Below, piece by piece: positions 32,915-40,562 of a DNA stretch of 54,277 nt. Under the pieces are notes generated by a model. That model was not told the DNA's origin and did not search any database. It worked only from the letters and a program-made list of their open reading frames with translations. The first letter of the stretch is position 1, and each line of letters starts with the position of its first letter. Both the position numbers and the translations under genes were made by a program. This DNA is from an uncultured bacterium (GTDB lineage Bacteria; Nitrospirota; Thermodesulfovibrionia; Thermodesulfovibrionales; Thermodesulfovibrionaceae). Location of the stretch: assembly GCA_937998865.1 (NCBI GenBank), contig CALLBR010000008.1, forward strand, positions 1 through 54,277, written 5' to 3'.

Positions 32915-32921
32915 CTTATAG

Positions 32922-32955
32922 TTTTTTGAACATTTTATAAGGATAACATTACTAA
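32922..32955 (+). promoter_or_regulatory. ECF-type promoter motif P1 (at the sigma gene)
   Basis: TTTTTTGAAC (32922-32931), 18 bases, then TACTAA (32950-32955). It shares the layout of P2 and P3. GAAC-N18-hexamer is the spacing of RpoE-type promoters (GGAACTT-N15/16-GTCTAA). The -10 overlaps the annotated ATG of the sigma gene, so a transcript from P1 would begin just inside the ORF; its use for full-length sigma is therefore uncertain. Confidence 0.5.
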
Positions 32956-33503
32956 TGGATGAAGAACAGAAACTGATAAAACAAATTTCAAAAGGTGATG
33001 AAGAGGCTTTTAGGAGGCTTTATGATTTCACATCAAGGAGTGTTTATCAATACATATACAGTTTTGTTAACAATCATGAAACAGTAGAGGATCTGATGAT
33101 TGAAACCTATATGCAAGTATGGTTGTCCGCTAAAAGATTTAGAGGAGACTCAAAAGTTTTAACTTGGATTTTTGGAATTGCTCGGAATTTAACAATGAAT
33201 GAAATAAAAAAGAAAGAGTATAGATATAGTGAATTAACAAATTTAGAAAGTCAAAAAGCTGAACAATTTAAATTAATATCAAAAAACGAGAGTGATTATC
33301 TCATAACAATGGCATTGAAAAAACTTTCAATAAAACACAGAGAAATTTTAGATTTGCTATTCATCCATGAATTAACCTATGAAGAAGTGGCAAAAATACT
33401 GAATATTCCTTTAAATACAGTGAAAACAAGAATTTTTTATGCAAAGGAAAAGTTAAGAGAAATTCTTGAGAATATGGGGGTCAATAAAGATGCCTTTTTC
33501 TAA
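32955..33503 (+). CDS. ECF-family RNA polymerase sigma factor
   Basis: The 182-residue protein has region 2 (EEAFRRLYDFTSRSVYQYIYSF, ETVEDLMIETYMQVWLSAKRFRGDSKVLTWIFGIARNLTMNEIKK) and region 4 (LSIKHREILDLLFIHELTYEEVAKILNIPLNTVKTRIFYAKEKLREIL), with no region 1 or 3. It directs RNA polymerase to a dedicated promoter set. A weak AAGGA lies 12 bases before the ATG. It overlaps the anti-sigma gene by 14 bases. The likely regulon is the flanking set of exported proteins, since three matching promoter motifs lie only here. Confidence 0.95.
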   Translation: MDEEQKLIKQISKGDEEAFRRLYDFTSRSVYQYIYSFVNNHETVEDLMIETYMQVWLSAKRFRGDSKVLTWIFGIARNLTMNEIKKKEYRYSELTNLESQKAEQFKLISKNESDYLITMALKKLSIKHREILDLLFIHELTYEEVAKILNIPLNTVKTRIFYAKEKLREILENMGVNKDAFF

Positions 33504-34098
33504 AAGATTGGAAGAGATTAAGGTAATTTTGCCTTTATATTCTAAAAGATTAATTGAAAAGGAGAAAGTTAAAGAAATTGAAAAAATATTACAATCTGAA
33601 CCAGCCCTTCAAGAAGAATTGAAATTTTGGGATACTGTAAAAAAAGGCTATGAAAAAATAAAGAGTGATTTGCCAGAACCTTCTTACCACATATACCAAA
33701 AAATAATCAGAAGAATTGAAGGCAAGGAGAGGATCCAAAACAAACTATGGAATTTTATAAGCTTGAAGCCAAAATTTTCTTTTGGCTTTATTATGTTCCA
33801 ATTTTTGGTTATAATTGTCATGTTTTTTTATATCTTAAATTTAAAATATGGCTATCAAACCCTCTCTACCACAGATATTAGGGCTGAGACATCTTATGTA
33901 ATCAATGTAGTCTTTAAAGAGAATGCCAAGGAAAGTGATATTAGAGAACTTTTAACAAAAATTGATGGAAGAATAGTTGATGGTCCTTATAGAACAGGTC
34001 TATATGTAGTTGGAATAAAAGACAAAGAAAAAAAGGATCAGATTTTAGATACATTAAGACAAAGTAATATTATTGTGTTTGCTGAACCTGCCAAATAA
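33490..34098 (+). CDS. Membrane anti-sigma factor with prodomain-like periplasmic tail
   Basis: The 202-residue protein has a cytoplasmic helical part (about 1-90, without the zinc HxxxCxxC motif), one membrane helix (about 98-117) and a periplasmic domain (about 135-202). The tail reads INVVFKEN...DIRELLTKIDGRIVDG...TGLYVVGIKD...ILDTLRQSNIIVFAEP, the pattern of subtilase prodomains (I9/fervidolysin type) and similar to residues 361-434 of the S8 protease encoded at 37.8 kb. I start at ATG 33490 with GGGGGT upstream, not TTG 33466. The anti-sigma role is inferred from position and topology. Confidence 0.75.
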   Translation: MPFSKRLEEIKVILPLYSKRLIEKEKVKEIEKILQSEPALQEELKFWDTVKKGYEKIKSDLPEPSYHIYQKIIRRIEGKERIQNKLWNFISLKPKFSFGFIMFQFLVIIVMFFYILNLKYGYQTLSTTDIRAETSYVINVVFKENAKESDIRELLTKIDGRIVDGPYRTGLYVVGIKDKEKKDQILDTLRQSNIIVFAEPAK

Positions 34099-34109
34099 AT
34101 TTCCAAAAA

Positions 34110-34143
34110 TTTTTTGAACAAAATTCTATTTTAAATTGACTAA
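34110..34143 (+). promoter_or_regulatory. ECF-type promoter motif P2 (exported-protein operon)
   Basis: TTTTTTGAAC (34110-34119), 18 bases, then GACTAA (34138-34143). A transcript would start near 34150, with GGAGG at 34159-34163 and ATG at 34169, a well-formed promoter and leader. Confidence 0.65.
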
Positions 34144-34168
34144 TTAAAAAAAAATATTGGAGGAACAG

Positions 34169-35098
34169 ATGAGAAAAAATTTTGCTTTTATTTCTATGAG
34201 AGTTTTTGTAATTTTCCTGTCTTTTCTTTTTGCTTCTTTTGCTAATGCTGAAAGTGGACCCATGACTCATAAGCCTAAAGGAGAAGCACCACCAACAAAA
34301 GTGGATCAGATGCGAGAATTGTTGCCTGATTTAGTTGTTTCAGAGATTTTTGAAGATAGCGCAGGCAATATCATAGTTAAGATAAGAAATATCGGAAGGG
34401 GATACATAAACGAATCAGCTTATGTAAGCCCTGATAAATATGCTTTAATTTTATTAGAGATTAATAAAAATGGACAAAAAATTCCTCTTGCCACAATTGA
34501 TTCTTCCAAAGCATTATGCCGTCCCGGCGGAGAGGTAATATGGAATACAGGTAAAAAAACAGAGGGAAATAGGACAGAAGTTATTGTTAGGCTTGATATT
34601 ACGAATGTAATTAATGAGTCAGCGGAATCGAACAATCAATTAAGTCGGATTTTTGAAAAACTCGGAATGGTAGGGATTGACCTTGTCATCGTTGATTTAA
34701 AAAAGAATAGCAATGAATATTCTTATTATGCCCAAATCCAGAACAAGGGCAACAGGAGTTTCAATGGAACGATTCATTTTGAAGTATGGTTTAAGGATTA
34801 TGCTCATGGTAATACCTGGAAAAGAGTTCAACCACCATATGTTTCGCTGATAAATTCTAATAATGTTTTTGATAGTAAACTTGAAATACCGGCGATGGTG
34901 ATAACTTGTAGAAATGTGTCAATTCCTCCTCATGAAATTTTTAGCACGAATGCTATAAGTCCATGTGGTGTAAACTATCTTTTTAAAGTAACACCTCAGC
35001 CATCTGATATTGGAGTGGAGGTAAAAATAAAATTTTCTACTGATAGTGCAACTGAAAATAAGGCAAACAATGAATTTATCATGCATATAAGGAGATAA
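34169..35098 (+). CDS. Exported protein with two CARDB-like Ig domains
   Basis: The 309-residue protein has a clear Sec signal peptide (RKNFAFISMRVFVIFLSFLFASFANA, cut before ES). Residues about 47-160 follow the CARDB adhesion/Ig pattern: LPDLVVSEIFEDSAGNIIVKIRNIG...ESAESNNQ. A second weaker unit follows (IDLVIVDLKKNSNEYSYYAQIQNKGNRSFNG...ATENKANNEF). CARDB domains are found in surface and secreted proteins and usually mediate binding. GGAGG sets ATG 34169; the TTG at 34157 is rejected. It is the first gene after promoter P2. Confidence 0.8.
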   Translation: MRKNFAFISMRVFVIFLSFLFASFANAESGPMTHKPKGEAPPTKVDQMRELLPDLVVSEIFEDSAGNIIVKIRNIGRGYINESAYVSPDKYALILLEINKNGQKIPLATIDSSKALCRPGGEVIWNTGKKTEGNRTEVIVRLDITNVINESAESNNQLSRIFEKLGMVGIDLVIVDLKKNSNEYSYYAQIQNKGNRSFNGTIHFEVWFKDYAHGNTWKRVQPPYVSLINSNNVFDSKLEIPAMVITCRNVSIPPHEIFSTNAISPCGVNYLFKVTPQPSDIGVEVKIKFSTDSATENKANNEFIMHIRR

Positions 35099-35120
35099 CC
35101 ATATTAAATGGGGATTTAAG

Positions 35121-35663
35121 ATGGAGGGATTGAGGTTTTTATTAATTTCAATTTATTTTCTTTGTTTTATAGCCTCAGCATATTGTCAGACTGATAGAAT
35201 TCAGAGTCCTAAATTTCAACCTCACTATACTACTTCTCAAAATCCTCCTGTATCATCCAATTCTCAACCAGAAGATTTAAGAGGTAGTAAACCAGCCTTA
35301 CAAAGTAGCTTAAATATAATTAACTTTTCAACTTCATCAAATACTATAAATTATGGAGATGAGGTTATTCTTAGATGGACAATAAAGGGGTATAATGTTT
35401 CAAATTTAAGACTTGAAATAAAACCAGATGTTGGCATAATTCCTCTTTCACGGACAGACTATAGAAATGAAAACTTTAAGATTGAAGGTTCTAAAACAAT
35501 AAAATCCTTTAAAAGTGATACATATACATTGCAAATAATAGCTTCAGAGCCAGTGAAATTAGATTTAGATAAATATGGTAGCCCTCTCCAAAGTATGTTA
35601 CAAAAAATTAAGGTGGCCAGCATAAATGTAGAGAAACCAAAAATAGAGAATATGAAGCCTTAG
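35121..35663 (+). CDS. Exported Ig-like protein, probably truncated
   Basis: The 180-residue protein has a signal peptide (LRFLLISIYFLCFIASAYC) and a Ser/Pro/Gln-rich linker to about residue 65. One beta-sandwich-like segment follows (IINFSTSSNTINYGDEVILRWTIKGYNVSNLRLEIKP). The frame ends at a TAG just where a CARDB-like sequence continues in another frame, so it is probably the front part of a longer disrupted gene. It lies in the P2 transcript, 22 bases after the preceding stop. Exact function is not recognised. Confidence 0.7.
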   Translation: MEGLRFLLISIYFLCFIASAYCQTDRIQSPKFQPHYTTSQNPPVSSNSQPEDLRGSKPALQSSLNIINFSTSSNTINYGDEVILRWTIKGYNVSNLRLEIKPDVGIIPLSRTDYRNENFKIEGSKTIKSFKSDTYTLQIIASEPVKLDLDKYGSPLQSMLQKIKVASINVEKPKIENMKP

Positions 35664-35792
35664 TTGATAAGGAAACAATGAAGATAAAATTTATAGTTAA
35701 AAATATTGGAGCTGGAGACTTTCTATCAAGTCCAAATAGTAGATGTAAAGACTGAGGGCGATAACATTTTGATTGAATATTTGCCTAAATAA
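35648..35792 (+). pseudogene. Decayed CARDB-like fragment, two frames
   Basis: From 35648 one frame reads YEALVDKETMKIKFIVKNIG and continues to GAGDFLSSPNSR before a TGA at 35753. A second frame then reads QIVDVKTEGDNILIEYLPK and stops at 35792. KIKFIVKNIGAGDFLSSPN resembles KVRITGVVKNIGMESYISGPN in the CARDB protein at 41 kb. The pieces appear to be the shortened, frameshifted tail of the gene at 35121. Confidence 0.6.
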
Positions 35793-35832
35793 ATATATAA
35801 TTAGTAGGTTGTCCAAGGTATAAATGGTAATT

Positions 35833-35897
35833 GGAAAACCATTTGTGCTCAAAGATAACCAAAAAAAATTAAGGAGGATGAGCGCAAATGGTTTTCC
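35833..35897 (+). promoter_or_regulatory. Long RNA hairpin enclosing the RBS and start codon of the barrel gene
   Basis: Arm 1 is 35833-35851 and arm 2 is 35879-35897. They pair over 19 positions in RNA: 18 Watson-Crick pairs and one G-U wobble (35846 with 35884). The 27-base loop carries AAGGAGGA at 35871-35878. The ATG at 35888-35890 lies in the stem, paired with CAU at 35840-35842. A third copy, AAATGGT at 35822-35828, can pair with ACCATTT in arm 1 as an alternative 7-bp hairpin. No T-run follows, so a terminator is unlikely. Confidence 0.7.
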
Positions 35898-37813
35898 TTG
35901 TTCTTATGGGTTCTTTAATATTCATTTTTTTTCATGTTCCTTTATGCGCATCAGAGATGAAAGAAGAATTATTCAAAGTCCTATATCCTCAAGAAGGCTC
36001 AGAAATCATAGCAAAGAAGCCTAATATTAAAGTGGAGTTTGATGAAAAAGTGAAGAAAGAAACAATCGTTGTTTTATTTGACGGAACAGATGTTACTCAA
36101 TTAGTTAATTTCACTGAAAAGGGCTTTGAGTTAAAACCTTTTATGGTAGTTTCTCCGGGGTCTCATACAGTTAATATTTCAGCTCAAGATAAAGAAGGGA
36201 ATCAAATTGAAAAGACTCTATCCTTCCAAACTAGACACACAGAAGTATTCGATGAAGCCTTGTCAAATAATAATGCAACCATAATTTATGAGGGAGTTCT
36301 TAAAAAATCTGATAAACTTGGGAATCTTCCCTATTCAAAGATAGAGGGAAATTTAAGTTCTAATACGAGGTTAAAAAATCAGACATGGGAATTCACATTC
36401 AATACTAATCTTAGATATTTTGACCAGAATGAACCGCTTACACTACCGCAGAAAAAAGGATTGGATATAGTTAACTGGACATTTACTGGAAATTATACAA
36501 AAGATTTATTAAAGGTAAAAACAAACATTGGTGATATACAAATTACAGAATCACCTTATACTATTTCAGGGCTTAGTCGAAAAGGTGGCTTATTTAATAT
36601 TGAATACGATATATTTCAGCTTAATGCCTTTACAGTAAAAAGTGAAGCTCTTTATGGTTCAAGGGGCGGAACAGGAATTGAAACTTCCAACCATGACCAT
36701 ATAATGGGTTTATCAGCAGCCTTGAAACTTTTTGATAGAAAGATGGAGTTTAAAACCCTTTATGTAACGGGTGGTGAACCATCAACAGGATTTGGTATTT
36801 CTTCTTTTGGCGGCAATAGACAAGGAGATGTTCTAGGTTTTTTGGTAAATTCGTATTTTTTTGAAAACAAATTAAATACAGATTTTGAAATTGATTTTTC
36901 CAAATATGATCCTGATACATCTGACGAATTTGCTAAAGATAGTGATAAGGCATACAGGGCAAAGATTTATGGCGCAATAGACAAGTACAACTATGAAGCC
37001 ATGTATGAATATATAGGAAGAGATTATCAGATAGTGGGAAACACTATTCAAAAAGATCGTCAAGGATATAGTTTAAGAGGTGGAGCTAACTGGGATTGGC
37101 ATTCATTGAATTTATCTTTTTCAAGATATAACGATAATGTAAGAGGCGATGAAATTTTTCCGAGAATATATAATACTCAAATGGCTTTGGATTATTCCTT
37201 TAATAAAATTCCAGAGCTTCCTTTGGGATTAATTTATCAAAAATCAATTCAGAAAAGTACTAATGAACAAGAGGAAACTAACAAGATAAATATAGAAACC
37301 GATACCATATCAGGGAGGATTAACTATGTAAAGGATAAAATAAACATAGGCTTTACAACAGCTTATTCTTTCTTGAATGATAAAACAGCGGCTAATAATG
37401 ATACGACCTCTATAACCTATACTCTCACTCCTGTTTATACTGATGTCAACTTTTCTTTTAGTACAAGTTTTGCCCTTAATCAATCAAAAATAAAGCTTAC
37501 AGGTGCAAGAACTGATACTTATACTGCAAATCTTGATTTTAGAACCAAATTTTTGAATCAAAAAGCTACTTTTGATATAGCTGGAACTTATACAATTACA
37601 AAGGCAAATGATGGCTCAACCAATACAAGAAACTTAAATGGAGCAGTTCAACTTGCCTATGATCTTGCGAAATTTGTCAAGGACTATGCAAAACCTGTTA
37701 TAGCCTTAAAAGCAACTTATTCAAAAATAACCGATAAGATAAACGCCCTCTCAGATAGGGATGAATTTGTGCTTTATCTTGTATTTACCACAAATATGCC
37801 ATTTTCATTTTAA
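35888..37813 (+). CDS. Outer membrane beta-barrel protein with N-terminal Ig-like domain
   Basis: The 641-residue protein has a signal peptide (about 1-22, ending LCAS). An Ig-like domain lies at about 30-118 (PQEGSEIIAKKPNIKVEFDEKV...GSHTVNISAQDKEGNQ). The rest, about 500 residues, is rich in alternating aromatic/polar strands (WEFTFNTNLRYF, LNLSFSRYNDNV) and ends in Phe (NMPFSF), as barrels inserted by BamA do. No TonB plug is visible. Translation may be limited by the hairpin around its start. The S8 protease gene follows after 12 bases. Confidence 0.8.
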   Translation: MVFLVLMGSLIFIFFHVPLCASEMKEELFKVLYPQEGSEIIAKKPNIKVEFDEKVKKETIVVLFDGTDVTQLVNFTEKGFELKPFMVVSPGSHTVNISAQDKEGNQIEKTLSFQTRHTEVFDEALSNNNATIIYEGVLKKSDKLGNLPYSKIEGNLSSNTRLKNQTWEFTFNTNLRYFDQNEPLTLPQKKGLDIVNWTFTGNYTKDLLKVKTNIGDIQITESPYTISGLSRKGGLFNIEYDIFQLNAFTVKSEALYGSRGGTGIETSNHDHIMGLSAALKLFDRKMEFKTLYVTGGEPSTGFGISSFGGNRQGDVLGFLVNSYFFENKLNTDFEIDFSKYDPDTSDEFAKDSDKAYRAKIYGAIDKYNYEAMYEYIGRDYQIVGNTIQKDRQGYSLRGGANWDWHSLNLSFSRYNDNVRGDEIFPRIYNTQMALDYSFNKIPELPLGLIYQKSIQKSTNEQEETNKINIETDTISGRINYVKDKINIGFTTAYSFLNDKTAANNDTTSITYTLTPVYTDVNFSFSTSFALNQSKIKLTGARTDTYTANLDFRTKFLNQKATFDIAGTYTITKANDGSTNTRNLNGAVQLAYDLAKFVKDYAKPVIALKATYSKITDKINALSDRDEFVLYLVFTTNMPFSF

Positions 37814-37825
37814 GGAGGAGTATAC

Positions 37826-39931
37826 ATGAGAAGAAGCATTTTTCTAATTATAGTTGTTTCATTAATGTTTTTTCAGGCAATATCTTATGCAGGAGTGACA
37901 GTTACGGCAAGTAAGACGAATATACCTCGTGGTCAAACAAACACAGTCACATTAAATTACAAATTAACAAATCCTTATAATCCTTCATGTTCTGCAAAGT
38001 CAAATTTAGGGGAATTTGTGATTGGAAATACTATAATTGGCACTGTTCAAAAAACAATCACTATAAATGTAGCAGGCAATAATGCCACAGCAGTTGAAGT
38101 TTTAAATATACCCTTAAGCGTTACTGAAAGAGCAATAAAAATGAGGGAAAACAAAATAGAATTTAGAAGAAATTTTTTAGTTCTAAACTGCTCTTCCACA
38201 TATTACCAATATTACCAATTAGTCTCCTTAATTTTTTACATTACAACAGAGGCAGCTGCTGAGTTTGATATAAAAAGAATAGAGCTTTATTTTGAAAATG
38301 GCCGTGCTGAGATTACTGTTCCAAAGAATTATAAAGGACTTAAAGCTTTTGCAGATATTAAATTTACAGGTTCTGGACTTCTTAGAGGTTATTGGGAAGT
38401 GGATGGGAGAATACTTTCTCATGTAAATCAGCATATAACCTATGGGAAAACAACTACTTTTCAAACACCTGATATTCCACCTCTTCCTACCTTTGAAACT
38501 GGAACACACATACTTAGATTTGTCGTTACAAATCCATCTGTTGAAATTCCTTTACCTTCTGCCATTTATTTTGTAAGATCAGAGGAAGTAAAAGAATTTT
38601 TGAAGATAAACCTTTTATCTCCTCAAAATAATTCAGAATTTGACTATGCTTCTCAGAAATTCACCTGGGAAAATCTTGATGGAACAATGATGTATCTGGT
38701 TCAATTTTTTGAAAACAGAGATTCCAAGCCTATTTTTTCTGCCTATACCAAGGAATCGTATTATAATTTGCCAGATTCTATTGTGAAGAAAATTTTTCAA
38801 CAGGGAAAAACTTATTACTGGAGAGTAATAGGTTTTGATGAAAAAAACAATTCAGTAGGTGAAAGCGATATTTGGAAGTTTTCTTTTAGGTCCCAAAGTT
38901 TCATTCCGGGACATATCATTATAGCTCTTTCAACAACTGACTTTTCTAAGGATTTTATTGAAAGATTAAAGGTCAAATATGGATTGGAGATTATTGAATT
39001 TTTCAATTTAGAGACTTTAAACACAGTGGTTGTTTTATTTAAGTGTAATGAAAACATCTTAGATAAGATAGAACTGATAAAATCAGAAGAAAAAATTATT
39101 CTTGCACAACCTAATTTTATATTTCAAACCCTTTCAGAACCATTGAGAAAATTTCAGTACGCCCTTGACATTATGAAGATTGAAAAAATACATAACCTTT
39201 ATAAAGGTAAAGGTGTTAAGGTGGCAGTCATTGATACAGGTGTGGATTATGAACACAGGGATTTGAAGGAAAGGGTTGTCCTTTCAAAAAATTTTGTCAG
39301 AGCAGAAACCTATAAAAAAGAGATTCACGGAACAGCTGTGGCAGGTGTAATTGGAGCAAGTATTAATGGTTTTGGAATAGCAGGAGTTGCTCCAGAGGCT
39401 AAAATTTATTCTCTGCGGGCATGTACTCAGATAGGTGATACAGCTAAGGGGCTATGTGAGAGTTTTAATATTCTAAAAGCACTGGATGAGGCAATTAAAA
39501 GAAATATAAGAGTTATCAATATGAGCTTTGGCTCATTAAATTATGATAGACTTTTAAGTGCGCTAATTGACAAAGCAGTGCAGAGGGAGATTTTTATAGT
39601 TGTGCCTTTATCAATCATCGGAAATTCAATCACTTTTCCTGCCTCCCATCCAGATGTAATTTCAGTGGGAGGAATGGATGAAAAGGAAAACCCCTATCCT
39701 TCAAAGGATATTGTTAATAAAGCAAAAGTTTTAGCTCCTGCTGACAAAATAATTACCACTTTTCCAGATAACAGACACAATTTCATTTCAGGAACTTCAT
39801 TGTCTTCTGCTTATGTGAGTGGACTTTTAGCATTATACATTCAAATGGGTGATAAAAGAAATCTCCCATCCTTCAAAGGTGATTTATATAAATGGGAAAA
39901 GGAGATTTTTGGAATATTCCCAGGGGAGTAA
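37826..39931 (+). CDS. Exported subtilisin-like (S8) serine protease
   Basis: The 701-residue preproprotein has a signal peptide (1-22), a beta-rich region (23-255) and a fibronectin-like domain (about 260-355, ending TYYWRVIGFDEKNNSVGESDIWKF). A prodomain-like segment follows (361-434, PGHIIIAL...AQPNF), then the catalytic domain with D470 (VIDTGVD), H501 (HGTAVAG), oxyanion N600 and S658 (SGTSLSS). All catalytic residues are present. The large N-terminal region is unusual for a simple secreted subtilase and may anchor it or recognise substrate. RBS AAGGAGGAG precedes ATG. Confidence 0.9.
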   Translation: MRRSIFLIIVVSLMFFQAISYAGVTVTASKTNIPRGQTNTVTLNYKLTNPYNPSCSAKSNLGEFVIGNTIIGTVQKTITINVAGNNATAVEVLNIPLSVTERAIKMRENKIEFRRNFLVLNCSSTYYQYYQLVSLIFYITTEAAAEFDIKRIELYFENGRAEITVPKNYKGLKAFADIKFTGSGLLRGYWEVDGRILSHVNQHITYGKTTTFQTPDIPPLPTFETGTHILRFVVTNPSVEIPLPSAIYFVRSEEVKEFLKINLLSPQNNSEFDYASQKFTWENLDGTMMYLVQFFENRDSKPIFSAYTKESYYNLPDSIVKKIFQQGKTYYWRVIGFDEKNNSVGESDIWKFSFRSQSFIPGHIIIALSTTDFSKDFIERLKVKYGLEIIEFFNLETLNTVVVLFKCNENILDKIELIKSEEKIILAQPNFIFQTLSEPLRKFQYALDIMKIEKIHNLYKGKGVKVAVIDTGVDYEHRDLKERVVLSKNFVRAETYKKEIHGTAVAGVIGASINGFGIAGVAPEAKIYSLRACTQIGDTAKGLCESFNILKALDEAIKRNIRVINMSFGSLNYDRLLSALIDKAVQREIFIVVPLSIIGNSITFPASHPDVISVGGMDEKENPYPSKDIVNKAKVLAPADKIITTFPDNRHNFISGTSLSSAYVSGLLALYIQMGDKRNLPSFKGDLYKWEKEIFGIFPGE

Positions 39932-40061: not shown

Positions 40062-40562
40062 TTGAGAGTAAAGTTATTTTTTTTGTGTGCTTCCTTACTG
40101 ATTGTTTTTGTCTTTGCAGCAGATACTAATGCTGATCCTTTAAAGAATCTTAAAAGACCAACTATTAATGAAAATCAACAAAATCAAAAATCTCCTACAG
40201 TACTTCCACCACAGGTTAATGAAAATATTCCTAAACAACAACCGCCGCCTACAGCACCCAATAGGGAATTTACCAATATTGACTTTGAGGGAATACTTCA
40301 CGCTAAGAGTCGGGAATTTACCAATATTGACTTTGAGGGAATACTTCATGCTAAGAGTCGGGAATTTATCAATATTGACTTTGAGGGAATACTTCATGCT
40401 AAGAGTCGAGAATTTATCAATATTGACTTTGAGGGAATACTTCACGCTAAGAGTCGGGAATTTATCAATATTGACTTTGAGGGAATACTTCACGCTAAGA
40501 GTCGGGAATTTATCAATATTGACTTTATAGGAGTAAAGATTCTTGATTTACAGAAAAATTAA
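40062..40562 (+). CDS. Exported tandem-repeat protein (16-residue repeats)
   Basis: The 166-residue protein begins with TTG, supported by GGAGGT at 40051-40056; no ATG fits. A signal peptide (about 1-25) is followed by an Asn/Gln/Pro-rich segment to residue 67, then five units of REF(T/I)NIDFEGILHAKS and a final REFINIDF that runs into IGVKILDLQKN. No family is recognised. The repeats alternate hydrophobic and charged residues and could form a beta-solenoid or amyloid-like stack, or be cut at the basic KSR junctions. It lies downstream of promoter P3. Confidence 0.75.
   Translation: MRVKLFFLCASLLIVFVFAADTNADPLKNLKRPTINENQQNQKSPTVLPPQVNENIPKQQPPPTAPNREFTNIDFEGILHAKSREFTNIDFEGILHAKSREFINIDFEGILHAKSREFINIDFEGILHAKSREFINIDFEGILHAKSREFINIDFIGVKILDLQKN
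40263..40526 (+). repeat. 48-bp tandem repeat, 5.5 copies
   Basis: Units start at 40263, 40311, 40359, 40407 and 40455, with a 24-base half unit at 40503-40526. Copies differ at only a few bases (ACC/ATC for Thr/Ile, CAC/CAT for His, AGG/CGG/CGA for Arg). Because 48 is divisible by 3, other frames are also open across the array; these are shadows, not genes. Confidence 0.97.

Follow-up and report, generated by a model that had tools for sequence, protein, structure and literature searches.

The known site-1 proteases of anti-sigma factors are DegS, DegP, SipS/SipT, and Prc; S8 and C14 peptidases are not among them (PMC7593790). In the RseA-DegS-RseP system (sigma-E) and in other anti-sigma factors controlled by RIP, a membrane anti-sigma factor with a periplasmic tail undergoes site-1 and then site-2 cleavage. 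The locus described here likewise has a membrane anti-sigma factor with a periplasmic tail, and the same two cleavages are presumed. Unlike RseA-DegS-RseP, this type of locus co-encodes an S8 or a C14 protease, and the tail forms a putative docking domain that originates from the prodomain of a subtilase.

Subtilase and CHAT (caspase-like) genes occur in the context of ECF54 from Actinobacteria, for which proteolytic control has been proposed (PMC8999054). The locus shares with ECF54 the nearby subtilase or caspase-like genes. However, the mode of action proposed for ECF54 involves no anti-sigma factor (PMC8999054), whereas here one is present and bears both the tail and a linker motif. Likewise, sigma-70 genes were noted in 2012 in metacaspase operons of Myxococcus, Anaeromyxobacter, Ralstonia, and others (PMC3501461). 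The adjacency of sigma-70 and metacaspase genes is the same as in our loci; the excerpted part of that report mentions no anti-sigma tail or cleavage motif.

The stand-alone propeptide inhibitors of subtilases (POIA1, YIB2, SPI-1, SUB1-ProM, and TgMIC5; MEROPS I9) also carry the prodomain fold apart from its protease, and in Plasmodium the gene lies close to that of a subtilase (PMC6993865). These inhibitors extend into the active site, whereas the tail studied here is truncated and belongs to a membrane anti-sigma factor. In the SREBP pathway, the release of a transcription factor from the membrane begins with a cut by a subtilase, the site-1 protease MBTPS1. The likeness to our locus is an analogy only, and SREBP is not known to have a prodomain-like docking domain. 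In the open-access literature we found no anti-sigma factor with a subtilase-prodomain tail, in line with the preliminary description of this DNA, which knew of no such system.

The window, that is, the whole stretch of DNA analysed (54,277 nucleotides), has a GC content of 34% and contains an operon-like run of genes on the + strand. The open reading frames and coordinates given earlier for the sigma factor, the anti-sigma factor, and the S8 protease are correct. The features are as follows.

32955-33503, + strand: ECF sigma-70 factor, 182 aa (Pfam Sigma70_r2, r4, and r4_2 over the cut-off; TIGR02937)
33490 (ATG)-34098, + strand: anti-sigma factor of the membrane, 202 aa (helices in the cytosol, a single TM, linker, and prodomain-like tail)
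33853-33867, + strand: juxtamembrane linker motif YQTLS, residues 122-126, candidate subtilase site (motif comparison)
33895-34095, + strand: prodomain-like tail of the anti-sigma factor (PF22148, AF2, Foldseek/VIA)
34157-35098, + strand: secreted CARDB-like operon protein (sub-threshold CARDB match; kept in congeners)
35121-35663, + strand: operon protein, 180 aa (ORF and comparison with congeners)
35888-37813, + strand: predicted outer-membrane barrel-like protein (weak NF047446 match)
37826-39931, + strand: secreted S8 subtilase, 701 aa (Peptidase_S8, E 8.4e-33)
38894-39115, + strand: S8 prodomain, residues 357-430 (PF22148, 20.9 bits in the genome scan; AF2)

The sigma open reading frame overlaps the start of the anti-sigma gene by 14 nt. 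The 202-aa protein was classed as an anti-sigma factor from three features: it adjoins an ECF sigma gene, its N-terminal domain is predicted to be cytosolic, and it has one predicted TM (about residues 96-117), followed by the linker and the tail. Residues 8-88 show a weak match to PRK13920 (putative anti-sigmaE). The Pfam scan found no zf-HC2 (ZAS) domain in this protein, although the domain is found in distant relatives (L027 and L028). In all 44 relatives, the tail comes after a hydrophobic segment. Directly 5' of the sigma gene, a TGAAC at about 32915-32925 is conserved in five congeners. It resembles an ECF -35 element, yet it lies very close to the start codon, and a search for an ECF promoter upstream of sigma gave no convincing -10 element beside it.

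Within the genus, in family f8, and in Desulfobacterota, S8-type loci have a homologue of the barrel gene at the same position, and we infer that its product is an outer-membrane barrel. The product of 35121-35663 has 180 aa versus 467-553 aa in congeners (L035, L023, and L024), and the gene looks shortened by deletion. On the 3' side of the S8 gene, 40062-40562 encodes a secreted protein with six near-identical 16-aa repeats (REFxNIDFEGILHAKS), also kept in congeners.

The S8 subtilase consists of a signal peptide, N-terminal domains, the prodomain, and the catalytic domain. Its assignment to S8 comes from the Pfam match and from an intact triad (D470, H501, and S658). Pro-subtilisin E is its best AF2/Foldseek match; the predicted prodomain orientation is unlike that of pro-subtilisin (whole-chain rmsd about 17 Å). 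The protease has a signal-like N-terminus, read as a signal peptide, so it should reach the compartment of the anti-sigma tail. The alignment indicates that the oxyanion-hole Asn is replaced in the window (39206-39844; VVPLSIIGNS versus VAPVGNMPDQ in L025). The same is seen across the genus and in two sphingomonads, while family f8 and several Desulfobacterota keep this residue. Because of the replacement, the window protease may be slow or altered. If it were inactive, the locus would work differently.

The preliminary description had proposed that residues 136-202 of the anti-sigma factor and 361-434 of the protease share a letter pattern and the subtilase prodomain fold. Both ranges were well chosen. 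In full-length scans, PF22148 (Fervidolysin N-terminal prodomain) matches anti-sigma residues 138-200 (19.0 bits, E 0.0018) and S8 residues 357-430 (17.0 bits, E 0.008), both scores being below the cut-off of 21 bits. The isolated tail reaches 22.0 bits, which is over this cut-off. Nowhere else in the genome does PF22148 have a match. Among 22 tails, 14 match PF22148 (E up to 0.1), and the next family matches three.

The predicted folds of the two segments agree, a check that had been set beforehand. Structure predictions covered the window sequences and those of related loci. AF2 gives βαββαβ for the tail (strands 136-142, 160-164, 171-176, and 195-200; helices 148-157 and 179-191; pLDDT 74-89) and for the S8 prodomain (in segment numbering, strands 2-15, 33-41, 46-53, and 70-80; helices 21-31 and 57-65). 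Subtilisin prosegments are among the best matches of the tail by Foldseek/VIA-align (1scj_B, TM 0.68; 1spb_P, Z 8.1; 3whi_B; 2z2y_B). Other ferredoxin-like folds (ACT and ribosomal S6) score equally well against the modelled tail, so its resemblance to prosegments does not discriminate between these folds.

The shared letter pattern is not significant for the single pair. BLASTP of the tail against its own S8 prodomain gave E 2 in the wrong register, and a shuffle test gave p 0.41, not above chance. Similarity does appear at the level of family profiles. S8-partnered tails against their partner prodomains gave an hhalign score of 28.5 (P 2.9e-5), and none of 100 column shuffles exceeded 14.7. 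Shallow hhalign alignments of tails and prodomains gave nothing, the similarity emerging only with deeper profiles. The tail profile had no meaningful match among PDB sequences. The likeness of tail and prodomain is thus one of fold and profile and not of individual pairs.

The tail does not contain a complete prodomain. Residues 135-202 align end to end with residues 5-64 of 3a3o_B, from a solved complex of subtilisin with a Tk-propeptide that lacks the last five residues. The end of the tail (residue 202) corresponds to Tk-propeptide residue 64 and to residue 72 of the 77 in the BPN' prosegment (1spb_P). MEROPS I9-like inhibitors are recognized by C-terminal residues occupying the S4-S1 sites, and these are absent. 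With about five residues missing up to the active-site plug, the tail looks less like an inhibitor than like a docking domain. Judged from the alignment, it has the part that lies on the protease surface and lacks the peptide for the cleft. The inhibitor-like character attributed to it earlier is therefore doubtful. The tail C-termini (34080-34095 in the window) are also group-specific: many of the S8/barrel type end in AY, and those of the C14 type end in P. It may be important to the partner that this C-terminus is free.

The tail could also be a tethered inhibitor or parking site that holds the exported S8 protease inactive at the inner membrane. The fold of the tail and its linkage to S8 genes agree with this, and stand-alone prodomain-like proteins are potent subtilase inhibitors (PMC6993865). 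Nevertheless, the missing active-site peptide argues against it, as does the strong change in potency when the last six residues of prodomain-type inhibitors are replaced (PMC10580911). We consider such a parking site improbable. The same low probability applies to its regulatory extension, where loss of S8 by export through the barrel or by saturation would alter the anti-sigma conformation and free sigma uncut.

We searched for the tail in about 400 Nitrospirota genomes, 400 Desulfobacterota genomes, and plasmids; the other Pseudomonadota were sampled by two plasmids. The tail search of genome contigs gave only four loci. Tailed sigma/anti-sigma pairs are present in Thermodesulfovibrio-like genomes and several further families of Nitrospirota, Nitrospira-like ones among them, in several Desulfobacterota groups, and in two sphingomonads (Alphaproteobacteria). 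A peptidase gene is adjacent in about 41 of the 42 loci with enough contig, spread over these three phyla. The neighbour is an S8 gene in 22 loci, with three more added later, and a C14 (metacaspase-type) gene with DUF4384 in 16 loci from Nitrospira and its kin. Two genomes (G546 and G510) have both locus types. Because the loci are related by descent, these counts overstate their independence. The association of tail and S8 predicted from the window thus recurs in all three phyla; its exclusiveness does not, given the C14 partners in Nitrospira and kin.

The exception (G205) has a pair with no adjacent protease; an S8 gene of the same subfamily, with one in-frame stop, lies elsewhere in its genome. 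Where the contig ends within the locus (five genomes: G194, G093, G154, G697, and G311), the same S8 subfamily is also encoded elsewhere in the genome, so that all six of these genomes without an adjacent S8 carry it. No S8 of that subfamily was found elsewhere for one further cut locus (G006) and for one with a frameshifted tail (G133). Within the genus, S8 is present in 5/5 tailed genomes, and none of six complete (99% or more) tail-less congeners has a match. Tail and S8 were gained or lost together there. The neighbouring S8 is the only S8 gene of the genome in 11 of 18 genomes checked. In three loci (L065, L066, and L068) it lies upstream of sigma, so the linkage survives rearrangement.

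These results bear on whether the tail and the prodomain merely converged on a common fold, with chance motif similarity and no functional link. Such convergence would account for the pairwise scores and for the full-length Pfam scores. It would not account for the profile-level similarity, or for the finding that in three phyla nearly every locus has an adjacent protease gene, in many cases the genome's only S8. Given the linkage, convergence without a functional link is very unlikely, and we assign it only a slight probability.

On the sigma tree, which gives only an outline of phylogenetic independence, the S8 type is broad and the C14 type clusters in Nitrospira and its kin. The partner type changes twice, versus 13 times when shuffled. 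As the tail pairs with C14 too, the prodomain fold is not needed for pairing. This shows that the partner of the tail is not fixed by the fold of the tail.

The linkers differ between the two types. The motif [FYW]x[TA][LM][STAG] is present in 24 of 29 S8-type anti-sigma factors, a count that includes a few contig-end loci assigned to S8 by kinship only, and in none of 16 C14-type ones. Conversely, R[SG][ILV] is present in 16/16 C14-type and 0/29 S8-type linkers. Fisher p values, uncorrected for kinship, are 3e-8 (S8 motif) and 2e-12 (C14 motif). Shuffled linkers reached at most 5/29 and 6/16, respectively. The remaining five S8-type linkers have Leu followed by a small residue. All five S8-type loci found later have the S8 motif.

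Subtilisin prefers a large hydrophobic residue at P1 and an aromatic one at P4. The S8-type motif fits its subsites, with the aromatic residue at P4, Leu/Met at P1, and a small residue at P1'; YQTLS in the window offers Tyr, Leu, and Ser at these positions. Orthocaspases are described as cutting after basic residues (PMC6426788). The C14 partners carry SGHG and DSCHSG, and the C14-type motif fits a metacaspase-type cleavage site. A cut is likely in the linker (YQTL|S, residues 122-126) and not in the tail. A tethered inhibitor would leave both the partner-specific motifs and the C14 pairing unexplained.

Alternatively, the protease might be only an effector, a member of the regulon. The ferredoxin-like tail would then sense something else, and the linkage would reflect a shared operon. 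Ferredoxin-like folds are common, S8 and C14 differ while the tail is alike, and the operons also hold the barrel and CARDB-like genes, all of which suit this reading. In contrast, it does not explain why the tail best matches the subtilase-prodomain family, why the linker motif switches along with the protease class, or why the linkage persists with changed gene order and in different operon contexts. An effector-only role is unlikely, though it is less so than the parking site.

We favour, as the probable reading, an ECF sigma/membrane anti-sigma pair for which the co-encoded secreted S8 is a dedicated site-1 protease that docks on the tail. Nearly every tailed sigma/anti-sigma locus has an adjoining protease gene, and the linker resembles a cutting site, so the protease probably frees sigma. 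From the domain identity, fold, genomic linkage, and partner-specific motifs, we infer the docking, the cleavage, and the site-2 step. The mature secreted S8 would dock on the tail, a C-terminally shortened subtilase prodomain. Lacking the last ~5 residues, the tail would leave the cleft free for the linker, and the docked protease would cut YQTL|S just outside the membrane. The short stub would then undergo intramembrane (site-2) proteolysis, and sigma would be released. The freed sigma probably drives its own operon. How the protease becomes active might involve competition between its own prodomain and the tail, as one possibility. In Nitrospira and kin, a metacaspase-type protease would have taken the place of the S8 partner, while the tail was kept and the linker changed to R|[SG][ILV]. 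The earlier suggestion that the protease binds or cuts the anti-sigma factor, and thereby controls sigma release, is well supported by the comparison of loci, with binding and cleavage themselves at the level of prediction.

There is perhaps an even chance of a more general, modular form of ECF signalling. The anti-sigma factor would carry a protease-specific cartridge, a docking domain of subtilase-prodomain origin with a linker site matched to the co-encoded site-1 protease, and this protease could be either a subtilase or a metacaspase, one replacing the other. As a natural experiment, the exchange of partners makes for a sharper cleavage prediction. Our proposal adds S8 subtilases and metacaspases as candidate anti-sigma site-1 proteases and, for each of them, specifies the docking domain and the bond that is probably cut. 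For the secreted metacaspases of bacteria, about whose roles little is known, it offers a function that can be tested directly. If true, both protease classes would have a defined sigma-releasing role in bacteria, parallel to the eukaryotic subtilase that frees a membrane-held transcription factor.

Tail-like domains are also found outside sigma loci. One weak tail match (G313) was SecF and was rejected as a chance or fold-level match. Proteins of ~440 aa with the tail domain at the C-terminus are common in Nitrospira-like genomes (L101:9625-10947, L102, and L123); they have no known N-terminal domain and no adjoining sigma gene. In Nitrospirota, GspD-type secretins end in a PF22148 prodomain-like domain (L103:9628-11844, L106:2243-4543, and also L104 and L107), with E values of 1.4e-7 and 1.5e-19; one would not expect the prodomain fold of a protease there. 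Finally, a protein of 345 aa that ends in a prodomain-like tail is encoded directly 5' of a 1028-aa S8 protease with dockerin and other domains (L122:6933-11057). This pair is possibly a sigma-free version of the tail/S8 pair.
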